Below, one piece after another: positions 16,666 through 57,069 of a DNA stretch of 64,000 nucleotides. Each line of letters starts with the position of its first letter. The stretch's first letter is position 1. Position numbers and translations under genes: made by a program. This stretch comes from Kiloniellales bacterium (GTDB lineage: Bacteria; Pseudomonadota; Alphaproteobacteria; Kiloniellales; JAKSBE01), in the NCBI GenBank assembly GCA_030066685.1, contig JASJBF010000006.1, positions 1 to 64,000 on the forward strand, given 5' to 3'. The notes under the pieces are model-generated. The model was not told the DNA's origin and made no database searches. It saw nothing but the letters and a program-made list of their open reading frames with translations.

Positions 16666-17493
16666 ATGACAAGTCGCCTGCTGAGGGCCGTTCTTCTGGG
16701 CCTCCTGCTGATCCCCGAAGGCGTGGCTCCCGCTGCCGCCCAGACCTCGGAGGCGGTGGACCGCTCGGCGCTCAGGGTTTGTGCCGACCCGGGCAACCTC
16801 CCGTTCTCCAACCAAGCCGGCGAGGGCTTCGAGAACAAGATCGCCGAACTGGTCGCCGAGGAGCTCTCGGTCCCGGTCGAGTACACCTGGTTCCCGCAGT
16901 CCACCGGCTTCGTGCGCAATACCCTCAAGGCGCGGCGCTGCGACGTCGTCATCGGGATCTCGCTCGGCTTCGAGCTGCTCCAGAACACGAACCCCTACTA
17001 CCGCTCGGCCTATGTGATGCTGTTCCGGGACGACGGCGGCCCGCAGGTCGCCTCGCTTTCCGACCCGATGTTGAAGTCGGCGCGGATCGGCCTGGTTGCC
17101 GGCACGCCGCCGGCGACCATGGTTGCTCTGAACGGTCTGATGCGCCAGGTGCGTCCCTATCATCTGCAGGCCGATACCCGCTTCGACCATCCCGGCCGCA
17201 AGCTGGTCGAGGACCTCGCCAAGGGCGAGATCGACGTCGGCCTGCTCTGGGGGCCGATCGCCGGCTACTACGCCAAGCGGCAGGACGTGCCGCTCAAGAT
17301 CGTGCCCCTGCTCACCGACGGCGGGCCGGTGCGCATGGACTACCGCATCACCATGGGCCTGCGCTTCAACGAGCCGGAGTGGAAGCGGCAACTGAACGAC
17401 ATCATCAAGCGCCGCAGGGCCGACATCGACGCCATCCTGAACGACTACGGCGTGCCCCTGCTCGACGAGCAGGGCAAGCTGATCGCGCAGTGA
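16666..17493 (+). CDS. xoxJ: XoxJ/MoxJ-type quinoprotein-associated periplasmic binding protein
   Basis: A 275-residue protein with a signal peptide (cleavage after AAAQ, about residue 26) and a type II periplasmic-binding-protein fold. It opens with LRVCADPGNLPFSN, the typical start of the quinoprotein-associated family, and continues with CDVVIGISLGFELLQNTNPYYRSAYV. XoxJ/MxaJ proteins bind the dehydrogenase and are thought to help its activation; they do not serve a transporter. ATG 16666 is preceded by AAGGAGAG. It sits between the cytochrome and rhodanese-like genes, overlapping the latter by four bases. Confidence 0.9.
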   Translation: MTSRLLRAVLLGLLLIPEGVAPAAAQTSEAVDRSALRVCADPGNLPFSNQAGEGFENKIAELVAEELSVPVEYTWFPQSTGFVRNTLKARRCDVVIGISLGFELLQNTNPYYRSAYVMLFRDDGGPQVASLSDPMLKSARIGLVAGTPPATMVALNGLMRQVRPYHLQADTRFDHPGRKLVEDLAKGEIDVGLLWGPIAGYYAKRQDVPLKIVPLLTDGGPVRMDYRITMGLRFNEPEWKRQLNDIIKRRRADIDAILNDYGVPLLDEQGKLIAQ

Positions 17494-18065
17494 GGCAGAG
17501 CCTGCGCCGCCTCGCGCCTGGAGTCCTCCTGCTCGGTGCGGTCGTCTTTCTGTCCTCGCTTGCGGCGGAGGCCCAATCCGACGCCCCGGTCCCGGAGCCC
17601 GATGGCTACCGGATGGACAAGTTCCGTGCGCCGGTGCCGGCGACCCTGAAGGGTGCCACGGTGGTCTCCACCAAGGAGGTCGAGGCCCTGGCCGGCACGG
17701 CGATCCTGATCGACGTCCTGCCGCGGCCGCCCAAGCCCGAGGGCTTGAAGGAAGGGGCCATCTGGCGCCCGCGCCCGCGCAGCAACATTCCCGGCAGCGT
17801 CTGGCTGCCGAACACCGGCTTCGGCGTCCTGCCGATCAGCGTCGAAGCCTATTTCCGCGACAACCTGGGGCGGCTCACCGGGGGCGATGCGGCGCGCAAG
17901 CTGGTCTTCTACTGCCAGGCCGATTGCTGGATGTCCTGGAACGCCGCCAAGCGCGCGCTGACCTACGGCTATACCCAGGTCTATTGGTATCCCGAGGGAA
18001 CCGATGGCTGGGGCGCCGCCGGATTGCCCGTGGCGCCGAGCGAGCCGGAACCCGGCGCCTATTGA
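17490..18065 (+). CDS. Rhodanese-like PQQ-dependent catabolism-associated protein (CW motif)
   Basis: A 191-residue exported protein starting with GTG at 17490, four bases inside xoxJ. The signal peptide is LLLGAVVFLSSLAAEAQ. The rhodanese-like domain contains IPGSVWLPNTGFGVLP and the active-site loop FYCQADCWMSWNAAKRA, the hallmark of the PQQ-associated CXXCW family, though here the spacing reads C-x3-C-W. A periplasmic sulfur or disulfide function beside the SoxYZ-like carrier is plausible. The last 25 codons occur again, diverged, at 19663-19737, showing that the 3' end was duplicated. Confidence 0.88.
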   Translation: MRQSLRRLAPGVLLLGAVVFLSSLAAEAQSDAPVPEPDGYRMDKFRAPVPATLKGATVVSTKEVEALAGTAILIDVLPRPPKPEGLKEGAIWRPRPRSNIPGSVWLPNTGFGVLPISVEAYFRDNLGRLTGGDAARKLVFYCQADCWMSWNAAKRALTYGYTQVYWYPEGTDGWGAAGLPVAPSEPEPGAY

Positions 18066-18426
18066 GGCCTGGACCCATGAACGCCTCGCGTTAGCCCGAT
18101 TGCGACCGGGCTGATGAATGCGAGGAAGTCGGCGGCCAGCTGGTCGTTGCTCGTCCCAAGGTCCGCTGCCGGAAGCGATGCGGCAGCGGCGCTTCGCGCA
18201 CCAAGAAGGGACAGAACGACCGCTGGAGGCATTTCGCTAGGTGGCAACGCGCCAAATGTGATTGCCTTTTCAAGAGGTGTGGGGCATCAGTGCCATCTCT
18301 CCTGAAGGCAAGAGTGACGATGATCAAGACACGCTGAATCTCAAGGGCCGGTCGGCCCACTCTCTCTCAAAGAGACCGAGGCATGGCGCGCTGCGACCTT
18401 GCAGCCGCGGATCAGGAGATTTGGTG
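18066..18426. other. Intergenic region between the CXXCW gene and the GNAT gene
   Basis: 361 bases with no convincing gene. Short frames on the minus strand (for example one containing QLAADFLAFISP) have no ribosome binding site and look like decayed coding sequence or chance. The right end holds the AGGAG signal for the GNAT gene at about 18413. The region lies inside the segment bounded by duplicated gene ends, so it may be remnant DNA of that event. Confidence 0.45.
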
Positions 18427-19398
18427 ATGTCCGCGTTCAACAGAATGCCTTTCGTTCTGCGCGACTTCGAGAAGAACCGGAACGACTATTCGGGCGTGGC
18501 TCAGGTGGTGACCGCCGTCTGGCCTGACGAGTCCACGACTGCAGACGAGCTTGAGCTCGCGGACAACGACCGCCGACCGGGCCGGATATCTGGCCGGGTC
18601 GTTGCAGAGATCGACGGTCGGATCATCGGCTTTGGTGTCTACGGGCAGCCGGAGGCTTCGCTAAGGCCCGGAGAATTCTATCTCAATGTCCTGGTGCTGG
18701 ACGAACACCGGCGCCAGGGTGTCGGCGAGGCAATCTACAGCCGTATCATCGGTAGGTTATCTCGACATCGGCTTGCGGTCCTGATGGCAGATACCCGCGA
18801 GAGTCAGAGCGACGCGCCCGGCTTTCTTGAAAGGCGCGGTTTCGAGGTCGTTCAGCGCCGACCGGTGCTGCGACTCGATGTCGAGTCCTTCGATAGGGCG
18901 CGTCGTCTGTCCGCCAGAGTGCAGCGTGAAGTACAGAACATCACGGTTTGCGCGCTGAGCGAGCTTATGAAGGAAGTGCCGGATTGGAAGCGCAGATGTT
19001 GGGACCTGGATTGGCAAATTCTGCAGGATATCCCATCTCTCGAAGCGCCCGCGCGCCCGACGCTTGAGAGCTATTCGCGGTGCTATGAGGATTCGGCCTT
19101 CGCACCGCAGTCCTGGTTCATCGCTCTTCAAGGCGATGAATGGGTCGGGATGAGCATCCTTCAAACCGATTCTTCGACGCCCGGTACCTTTCACACCGAG
19201 GTGACGGGTGTCCGGCGCGGCTTTCGGCGCAGGGGCATAGCAACCGCATTGAAGCTGCGCGGAATCGAATACGTCCGGGCCCTGGGCGGCCGGGTCATCG
19301 AAACAGACAACGAAGAGAGCAGCCCGATGCTCAGACTGAACCTGACTCTCGGTTTCGTGCCTGGGCCGGCAATTCTCGAGTTTCGAAAGCCCTTCTGA
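18427..19398 (+). CDS. Tandem GNAT-domain acetyltransferase
   Basis: A 323-residue protein with two GNAT domains. The first covers about residues 5-160, with acetyl-CoA loop LDEHRRQGVGEAIYSRI. The second covers about 190-320, with loop VRRGFRRRGIATALKLRGIE. Two-domain GNATs often use one half as the catalyst and the other as a scaffold. The acceptor substrate cannot be told. ATG 18427 follows AGGAG at about nine bases. It has no functional link to its PQQ neighbours, is flanked by duplicated gene ends, and is probably a passenger in this locus. Confidence 0.85.
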   Translation: MSAFNRMPFVLRDFEKNRNDYSGVAQVVTAVWPDESTTADELELADNDRRPGRISGRVVAEIDGRIIGFGVYGQPEASLRPGEFYLNVLVLDEHRRQGVGEAIYSRIIGRLSRHRLAVLMADTRESQSDAPGFLERRGFEVVQRRPVLRLDVESFDRARRLSARVQREVQNITVCALSELMKEVPDWKRRCWDLDWQILQDIPSLEAPARPTLESYSRCYEDSAFAPQSWFIALQGDEWVGMSILQTDSSTPGTFHTEVTGVRRGFRRRGIATALKLRGIEYVRALGGRVIETDNEESSPMLRLNLTLGFVPGPAILEFRKPF

Positions 19399-19431
19399 TG
19401 TCCGGGCATGCCACAGCATTGGTTGTGAGGG

Positions 19432-19666
19432 CCCATGATCTCGCGGGCCAGGGCGAAGATCCGCTGTTCCAGAAGGATGGGCTGCTCGCAGATGTAGGTC
19501 AGGGATCGCTCGCGGTCCTCGTAGATCCGGATATCCCAGAGGCGCTGCCGCTCGAGCTCCTGCCGCTTCGCCGTCTCGCCGGCCGGCAGCGCCTTAAGCT
19601 CGCCCGCCAGGCGGCCGATCTTCTCGGCCAGCGCCCTTTGCTTTCGGCTATAGCGGCCGATGCCCG
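19432..19666 (-). pseudogene. Duplicated 3' fragment of the exported-protein gene at 20400-21029
   Basis: 235 bases that align without gaps to 20413-20647. My hand alignment gives about 13 differences, roughly 94 percent identity. It encodes the C-terminal segment from GIGRY to ALAREIMG of the lut-locus exported protein, but has lost the native end and the N-terminal half. The frame runs on into unrelated sequence. Its right edge joins a fragment of the CXXCW gene at a shared CCCG. It is a scar and not a functional gene. Confidence 0.9.
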
Positions 19667-19737
19667 GGGGCACCGACGGCTGGGGCGCCGCAGGCCTGCC
19701 GCTGGAGCCGAGCGAGCCGGAACCGGGCGCGGAGTAG
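19663..19737 (+). pseudogene. Duplicated 3' fragment of the CXXCW gene
   Basis: About 70 bases matching 17991-18065, the last codons of the rhodanese-like gene: GTDGWGAAGLP...PSEPEPGA then a stop, against the same pattern in the parent. Identity is roughly 85 percent and the stop codon is kept. It is joined directly to the fragment on its left, which reads in the opposite direction. It has no start or ribosome binding site. Confidence 0.88.
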
Positions 19738-19832
19738 GCTCGGTACTGCGCCACCCAATGCGGCTTGCTCATTCGCGTGCGGGGCGTTCGCCCTGGGCGG
19801 GGTCCGGGGCAGGGAATGTGAGACGGGCGCGG

Positions 19833-20222
19833 TCAAATCGAAGCATGGATCAAGAAGCCAGAGTTGGCGAGGAAGACGGCCATCGTCGCAAGCATCGACA
19901 GTGGTCGGGTCGCCGCAAGGGGGCGCAGCGTCAGCGTGGCGTAGTGGGCTGTACGGGCAATCAGGAGGGTTGCGCCAACGGCATGCATGAAGGCCGCCGG
20001 AGCAGCGTTCAACTCGGCAAGTCCCATGAGAAGCAGTGCGAAGGGCACATACTCGAGAAAGTTCGCGTGTCCGCGAACCCGCCGCAAGAGCGTTTCGTCA
20101 CCGCCGTCCAAGAAGGGAGTCGCTGTCTTGATTCGTCGGAGTCCGACGACAATCGTGATGGGGATCAGAAAAAGCCCGAACACCGCTGCATAGACGCTGG
20201 TGATTGGCAATGTCGTGATCAT
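19833..20222 (-). CDS. MAPEG-family membrane protein
   Basis: A 129-residue integral membrane protein with four hydrophobic helices. MAPEG features are RVRGHANFLEYVPFALLLMGLAEL in the middle (charged R-x-x-x-N-x-x-E within the membrane) and ARTAHYATL near residue 90. Bacterial MAPEG proteins are related to microsomal glutathione transferases, but most are uncharacterised. It lies in the second spacer of the duplicated segment, converging on the CXXCW fragment. A start at ATG 20222 gives the normal family length. Confidence 0.85.
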   Translation of the reverse strand: MITTLPITSVYAAVFGLFLIPITIVVGLRRIKTATPFLDGGDETLLRRVRGHANFLEYVPFALLLMGLAELNAAPAAFMHAVGATLLIARTAHYATLTLRPLAATRPLSMLATMAVFLANSGFLIHASI

Positions 20223-20399
20223 TGACAGACCTTTCCAAGAGTACTGGGCAGACGTTCCGGCTCATCACGCTTCCTCGAGATCTTTCACCGCAGTCGGACG
20301 CATTCAGCCACGAGTGGTGGAACCAAGCTGAACGGCGAGTGGCGGTGTTCGAAAGTCCGGCCGGCATCTGCGGGAATGCCGTAGCCCCTTCCCCTGGTG

Positions 20400-21029
20400 T
20401 TACTCCAGATGCCCCATGATTTCGCGGGCCAGGGCGAAGACCCGCTGTTCCAGAAGGACGGGCTGCTCGCAGATGTAGGTCAGGGAGCGCTCGCGGTCCT
20501 CGTAGATCCGGATATCCCAGAGGCGCTGCTGCTCGAGCTCCTGCCGCTTCGCCGTCTCGCCGGCCGGCAGCGCCTTGAGCTCGCCCGCCAGGCGGCCGAT
20601 CTTCTCGGCCAGGGCCTGCTGCCTGCGGGTATAGCGGCCGATGCCCGAGATGATCGAGGCCCGCTCCTTGTTGACGATGTCCAGGGTCGCGGCGAAAAGC
20701 AGGGTCAGCCTCTCGTTCCTGTCGGTTCCGAGGCCAGCGGCGAAGTCGGCGACCGCGGCCTTCGCCGCCTCGATGTCGGTGCGCCGGGCGGCGAGGGTTC
20801 CGGCCAGCTGGCTCACCTCCGCGTCGCCCTTCCAGTCTCCCGCGAACTCCTCGACCGGCGGGCCGGCCCAGACCATGCCGGCGGAGATCTCCGGCACCTT
20901 GCGCTGCACACAGGGCCAGTCCGGCTCTCCCGAGCCGGCGGCGCGCGCGGGGCCGGCCAGGATCAGCAGGCTCGCGGCCAGCAGGGCCGGGCGATGCCAG
21001 CGGCGTCTTGCGCTATTGCCTCGGACCAT
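20400..21029 (-). CDS. Exported protein of the lanthanide-uptake ABC locus (LutG-like position)
   Basis: A 209-residue protein with a signal peptide ending ARA (about residue 30), a WPCVQRKVPEISAGMVW segment and long charged helices, probably coiled coil, through to the end. It is the last gene of the lut-like set, 17 bases after the permease gene. In Methylorubrum an exported protein of unknown role occupies the same place (lutG); equivalence is inferred from position. Its 3' third (20413-20647) is duplicated at 19432-19666. Confidence 0.8.
   Translation of the reverse strand: MVRGNSARRRWHRPALLAASLLILAGPARAAGSGEPDWPCVQRKVPEISAGMVWAGPPVEEFAGDWKGDAEVSQLAGTLAARRTDIEAAKAAVADFAAGLGTDRNERLTLLFAATLDIVNKERASIISGIGRYTRRQQALAEKIGRLAGELKALPAGETAKRQELEQQRLWDIRIYEDRERSLTYICEQPVLLEQRVFALAREIMGHLE
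20413..20647. repeat. Direct repeat unit, intact copy
   Basis: The 3' part of the exported-protein gene, repeated in the same orientation 981 bases to the left (19432-19666) with no gaps and about 94 percent identity. The right boundary is at CCCGAG (20644-20649). The same six bases occur at 17991-17996 in the CXXCW gene, the other partner of the junction. Confidence 0.9.
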
Positions 21030-22647: not shown

Positions 22648-22674
22648 GTTGAGCGGTCTCCCCGGTGTCTCAAG

Positions 22675-22762
22675 AAAAAGGGGTCAGAGTCATTTCTCGC
22701 CTCGGTCTATTCCGCTTCCGTGGCAATGAGCCCACAGCAAAAAAAGTCTCTGACCCCTTTTT
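22675..22762. repeat. Palindromic MITE/REP-like element
   Basis: A perfect 15-base inverted repeat, aaaaaggggtcagag at 22675-22689 and ctctgaccccttttt at 22748-22762, separated by 58 bases. The inner flanks are also partly complementary (tcattt against aagactttt). From memory, GGGGTCAGAGTC-type palindromes recur in many bacterial genomes and resemble short REP- or MITE-like mobile elements. It sits between genes of the lut-like operon. Confidence 0.8.
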
Positions 22763-22780
22763 CCGCCCCTCTGTCAGGAG

Positions 22781-38679: not shown

Positions 38680-38772
38680 GGCGCCACTGTCGACGGTTAA
38701 GGTAAAGAAAGCGTCAAGGCCGCGGGGATCGAGAGGGCCGGGCTTGCAACGGGCATTTCGGCTGTCCTGGCG

Positions 38773-38873
38773 AAATCAAACTGCGCTCAATCGGGATCGA
38801 CCGAACGCAGACAACTCGACCCACTTCATAGATACGGAGCCGCCTGTGTTCGATAGAACGCAGGCGGCTCCTG
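38773..38873 (+). repeat. Double-hairpin intergenic element, copy 2
   Basis: It starts ATCAAACTGCGCTCAA like the other two copies. Its first hairpin is decayed: the core pairs only in part and the outer arms no longer match. The second hairpin (38836-38871) is intact: GGAGCCGCCTG... pairs with ...CAGGCGGCTCC over 16 bases with one G-U. It lies between a small hypothetical gene and the PilJ-domain gene and is not at the end of a plus-strand gene. Confidence 0.8.
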
Positions 38874-56635: not shown

Positions 56636-56863
56636 ATGAGCGACGCCTTTCTCGACGCCAAGGGCCTCAAATGCCCGATCCCGGTGCTGCGGGCGCGTCG
56701 GGCGATGAAGCCCCTGGCCGCCGGGGATATCCTCGAGGTAGAAGCCACCGATCCAACCTCGGTCCAGGATTTCAAGGCCTTCTGCGAGACTACCGGCGAC
56801 GAGCTCCTGGAAAGCCGCGAGGACGGCGGTGTCTATTTCTTCAGGATCCGGAAGTCTGGCTAG
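56636..56863 (+). CDS. TusA-family sulfurtransferase
   Basis: A 75-residue protein from ATG 56636 (GGAGGAG upstream). The active-site motif is LDAKGLKCPIPVLRARRAM with the persulfide-carrying Cys at residue 13. TusA proteins pass sulfur to tRNA modification and other pathways. It lies well away from recognised partners. The TAG stop (56861-56863) is the first base triplet of the double-hairpin element. Confidence 0.93.
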   Translation: MSDAFLDAKGLKCPIPVLRARRAMKPLAAGDILEVEATDPTSVQDFKAFCETTGDELLESREDGGVYFFRIRKSG

Positions 56864-56962
56864 ATCAAACTGCGCTCAATTGGACTCAATTGAGCGCAGA
56901 TACTTTGATCTATTCCATATAGATAGACCAGCCTGCGTTCGAATGAACGCAGGCTGGTCTAG
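56861..56962 (+). repeat. Double-hairpin intergenic element, copy 3 (best preserved)
   Basis: Hairpin 1 (56862-56911): AGATCAAA pairs with TTTGATCT, and inside it CTGCGCTCAATTG pairs perfectly with CAATTGAGCGCAG around a GACT loop, with an unpaired ATAC. Hairpin 2 (56924-56961): TAGACCAGCCTGCGTTC pairs with GAACGCAGGCTGGTCTA around a four-base loop. It starts at the TusA stop codon. In copy 1 the fifth pair of hairpin 2 (C-G) is changed to G-C on both sides, a compensatory change that supports RNA structure. Confidence 0.9.
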
Positions 56963-57069
56963 GACCCGTCGACGAGGCGGTCGCTGCCCCCGAAGCGACG
57001 TGCGGGCTGAAATCGAAGACAGTGGAACCGCATTCGCAGGCGGCCCTCGCCGCCTGCTGGCTCCCGGGC

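Follow-up and report, generated by a model that had tools for sequence, protein, structure and literature searches.

An old duplication scar with a short-homology joint between two convergent genes of a PQQ-linked gene cluster in a Kiloniellales bacterium

In the 64,000-nucleotide stretch of a Kiloniellales genome that was analysed here (contig JASJBF010000006.1, positions 1 to 64,000, in the following the window), two intact genes of a PQQ/lanthanide-type alcohol dehydrogenase cluster are arranged convergently. The first, here termed C, lies on the plus strand at 17493-18065 and encodes a PQQ-dependent catabolism-associated CXXCW motif protein (TIGR03865, E = 2e-68). The second, here termed E, lies on the minus strand at 20400-21029 and encodes an exported protein of the cluster, which matched no Pfam or NCBIfam family and was assigned by its orthologues (77% in the congener G002, more distant in 12 or so further relatives). 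Between the two genes there are two spacers, both lower in GC than the surrounding cluster, and between these spacers lie copies of the 3' ends of C and E. Spacer 1 (18066-19426, GC ~0.57-0.62, unique in the genome) contains the gene of a GNAT acetyltransferase on the plus strand (18427-19398; PF00583, E = 7e-20, two matched stretches), and spacer 2 (19738-20399) contains the gene of a MAPEG-family membrane protein on the minus strand (19833-20222; PF01124, E = 7e-15). Outside this region, between the ABC ATPase gene and the next gene, an inverted repeat with 27-bp arms (GAAAAAGGGGTCAGAGTC... / ...TCTGACCCCTTTTTC) is found at 22674-22763, which is present at the same place in the congeners G002 and G001 and recurs elsewhere in both genomes at several positions.

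Self-comparison of the window recovered two direct repeats that are joined at one point, at the coordinates that had been given for them in the earlier note. The longer one pairs 19427-19666 with 20408-20647 inside the E gene (240 bp, 94% identity), the shorter one pairs 17991-18058 at the end of C with 19663-19730 (68 bp, 85% identity), and as the E-values in self-BLAST are 4e-101 and 8e-15, respectively, neither is due to chance. No further copy of either segment was found in the rest of the 5.96-Mb genome. The C-end copy as a whole spans 19663-19737 on the plus strand, corresponding to the last 75 bp of the C gene (17991-18065), and has kept its frame up to an in-frame TAG stop, and the E-end copy, on the minus strand like its parent, is truncated at both ends and lacks the last codons and the stop of E (HLE-stop). 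The E-end copy runs directly into the C-end copy, and the four bases CCCG at their meeting point, 19663-19666, are common to both, which means that one single novel joint fuses two direct copies of one segment. Also the hexamer CCCGAG, which the earlier note had placed at both parental breakpoints, is found there, at 17991-17996 in C and at 20644-20649 in E (plus-strand reading), with the intact 6-mer in the parents only and CCCGGG at the joint of the fused copy. CCCGAG as such is common, with 67 occurrences in the window, although this is below the chance expectation; the probability that a random pair of breakpoints within the C and E genes shares at least 6 bp is about 0.005. As this is a draft genome in 73 contigs, the arrangement might be thought to be an assembly chimera of two strain variants, but the joint has only 4-6 shared bases, which is far under any assembler overlap, and the copies' own sequence is found nowhere else in the genome, which makes such an artefact very improbable. 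On the minus strand, an open frame of 193 aa passes through the joint (19772-19191) with E residues 124-206 in frame, but that selection maintains it as a young chimeric gene is hardly credible, and no function of the scar is indicated.

The window contains further repeats. One of them, about 105 bp long and dispersed, has copies at 17-138 on the minus strand, at 38767-38870, and at 56851-56965 on the plus strand. It consists of two hairpins that are long and almost perfect (for the copy at 56851, z as RNA is -12.7) and is found at about 40 places of the genome among the matches listed, with 79-96% identity and in some cases at contig ends. It has no Rfam match and is REP- or MITE-like. In addition, 1013-1298 and 1761-2052 repeat each other in direct orientation (about 290 bp, 72% identity) and are perhaps tandem paralogues.

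The locus is present in the two congeners G002 and G001 and in several further genomes of the order. In G002, the C gene runs to L047:12261, and E starts 19 bp further on the other strand with nothing in between, and in G019 and G023, which belong to another family, C and E are likewise convergent and adjacent, their coding matches being about 43 and 40 bp apart. The order before the duplication, which the earlier note had proposed to look for in close relatives, can thus be seen in these three compact loci. G002 has kept CCCGAG at L047:12186 in C and at L047:12524 in E, i.e. at both breakpoints and 338 bp apart, and short homology at both original breakpoints is therewith present in the pre-duplication state. 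In a BLAST comparison of the window joint with G002, query positions 30-266 matched L047 12291-12527 and positions 263-330 matched L047 12186-12253, which means that the E end comes first and the C end second. This reversed order makes the joint a circular permutation of the 338-bp segment of G002, which is exactly how a tandem duplication joined at CCCGAG must look, and the state in G002 supports the microhomology-bounded tandem duplication that had been noticed from the window alone.

As the ancestral junction was compact, the GNAT and MAPEG genes are both later arrivals, and the ancestral C/E spacer was probably tiny. The duplication of a gene-bearing spacer with subsequent replacement, which the earlier note had proposed, is not required. 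Such a duplication of a 1-1.7-kb unit with one gene already in the junction, followed by replacement of the gene in one of the units, would also explain why both inserts have the same outer limits, but it needs one extra event, and the spacers contain no remnant of each other, and it is thus regarded as unlikely. A common ancestry of the two spacers was rejected, as neither self-comparison nor BLAST detected any similarity between them. The GNAT gene has probably been acquired; in 289 genomes of the class, only one relative of full length was found, and this lies outside the order (63%). Relatives of the MAPEG gene within the order are only ~30-46% identical, and none of them is at this locus. 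Remnants of insertion sequences were sought in the spacers, but there was no multicopy DNA and there were no convincing terminal repeats, and also no plasmid source was found, with one short Microvirga match that covers the E-copy part only.

The C/E junction has been filled repeatedly in relatives. In G001, an inserted element sits right at the C stop, the first reading frame of which presumably resembles the start of an IS630 transposase; in G053, another gene is in the junction, which we take to encode an SRPBCC/MxaD-type protein; and in G048, 7.8 kb with several genes lie between C and E. The E gene was not found in G001, nor did the ABC exporter genes give a strong match in that genome. 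The same 139-bp element end occurs in G001 at L046:1-139 and L101:1-139, adjoining the CXXCW gene in one case and gatB in the other, each at its 3' end; both contigs break there, and each end is joined to its neighbour at TA.

The copies are old. Judged from sequence divergence, they split between about half and all of the divergence of this genome from G002, which is roughly species-level, and the scar is regarded as old because the repeats have diverged to this extent and substitutions have occurred also on the parent branch. Over 237 sites of the E end there are 15 differences between parent and copy (parent versus G002: 29), and over 68 sites of the C end there are 10 (parent versus G002: 9; versus G001: 11). 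When polarised by G002, the E-end copy has 11 changes and the parent 4, which fits a copy released from constraint, though with p = 0.12, and in the C end, polarised by the relatives, 6 changes over 75 bp fall on the parent branch. On the parent branch, the C end with 6/75 has a higher density of changes than the E end with 4/237 (p = 0.015, or 0.08 when limited to 68 bp). Parent-copy divergence is 15% in the C end and 6% in the E end (p = 0.26 when scaled by G002). Within the E repeat, only 3 parent-copy differences lie in the inner 153 bp and 12 in the outer 84 (17 and 12 between parent and G002), a difference with p = 0.025 for limits that were picked after seeing the data. This is only suggestive of gene conversion, by which the two E copies could have been kept alike in the middle and which would account for the E end looking younger than the C end.

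The explanation that is favoured here, though tentatively and at somewhat less than even chances, is a 338-bp tandem duplication within this genome, followed by the arrival of one gene in each C/E junction. In the ancestor, C and E would have faced each other with hardly any gap. Illegitimate joining of CCCGAG in the E end to CCCGAG in the C end would have duplicated about 338 bp directly in tandem, the duplicated unit comprising the C end, the short spacer, and the E end, likely by slippage or template switching at the replication fork or by short-homology exchange between sister chromosomes. The product, C - [E end/C end] - E, would have left both genes intact. One foreign gene would then have entered each C/E junction, GNAT the first and MAPEG the second, whereby the copies were separated, and the non-coding copies would have decayed afterwards. 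The intragenomic origin and this order of events are what we infer from the observed repeats and joint together with the gene order and microhomology of the relative. In favour of such an origin, no unseen donor is necessary, the type of event is taken to be commoner than import, and relatives, too, have repeatedly gained DNA in the C/E junction. Against it counts that a newly formed tandem repeat of 338 bp should be prone to collapse. Moreover, two random inserts in a free array of 353-405 bp would fall one per junction with a probability of only ~0.015-0.04 under a uniform model, which a real insertion hotspot at the C/E junction would raise, and the uneven changes on the parent branch are not predicted by a single duplication date unless there was gene conversion in the longer repeat.

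A further explanation, which the earlier note had not considered and which has a substantial, somewhat better than one-in-three chance of being right, is an additive import, in which two sister lineages, one with C-GNAT-E and one with C-MAPEG-E, would have been merged, so that both alleles would now lie in tandem. On one side the donor DNA would have entered by homologous recombination, and on the other by an illegitimate joint at CCCGAG, through homology-facilitated illegitimate recombination (HFIR) or through integration of a circularised piece. This single step explains better than the intragenomic model that both inserts are exactly between C and E ends, and the parent-copy difference of the C end (10/68) is at the between-species level of the genus (8-11/68), with changes on both branches. 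Also the parent-copy differences are rich in silent changes (~15/25 versus a proportion of 0.28 expected without selection), although part of this excess lies on the functional parent branch, and the branch of the E copy itself shows it only weakly (6/11, p = 0.06). The lack of the last codons and stop in the E copy would be odd for a functional donor unless they were lost later, and neither of the two congeners examined has a donor allele, as the junction is empty in G002 and holds an insertion element in G001. A donor allele was also not found in searches of the order for C and E (~60 genomes each) and MAPEG and of the class (289 genomes) for GNAT.

Whichever origin applies, the scar is a real and ordinary trace of genome rearrangement, left by a known kind of event, and it opens no new question. 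It illustrates clearly that the space separating convergent genes can be doubled and filled with foreign genes with neither neighbour being harmed. For annotators it is a caution, as the E and C fragments at this place are relics and not genes.

Microhomology-mediated (short-junction) tandem duplication is a known type of event in bacteria, and the locus has in common with it the short direct repeat at both breakpoints, the direct repeat of a segment, and the one novel joint. Unlike in a fresh duplication of this type, the copies have diverged by 6-15% and unrelated genes lie between them, and the structure thus is a fossil. HFIR with joints of 3-10 bp has been documented in naturally transformable bacteria (PMC6382021), and it is known, from the work cited there, in Acinetobacter, Streptococcus pneumoniae, and Pseudomonas stutzeri. 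The locus resembles these systems in its one short joint, CCCGAG being a microhomology within that range, and in the addition of DNA beside homologous sequence, but import is a candidate reading only, with no donor recovered in the searches, and the homologous crossover would leave no trace visible without one. With other PQQ/lanthanide-type (xox/lut-like) alcohol dehydrogenase clusters, the cluster shares the gene set of MDH, cytochrome, binding protein, CXXCW protein, ABC exporter, and beta-propeller, but unlike in those clusters the C/E pair is interrupted by a duplicated junction and two foreign genes.
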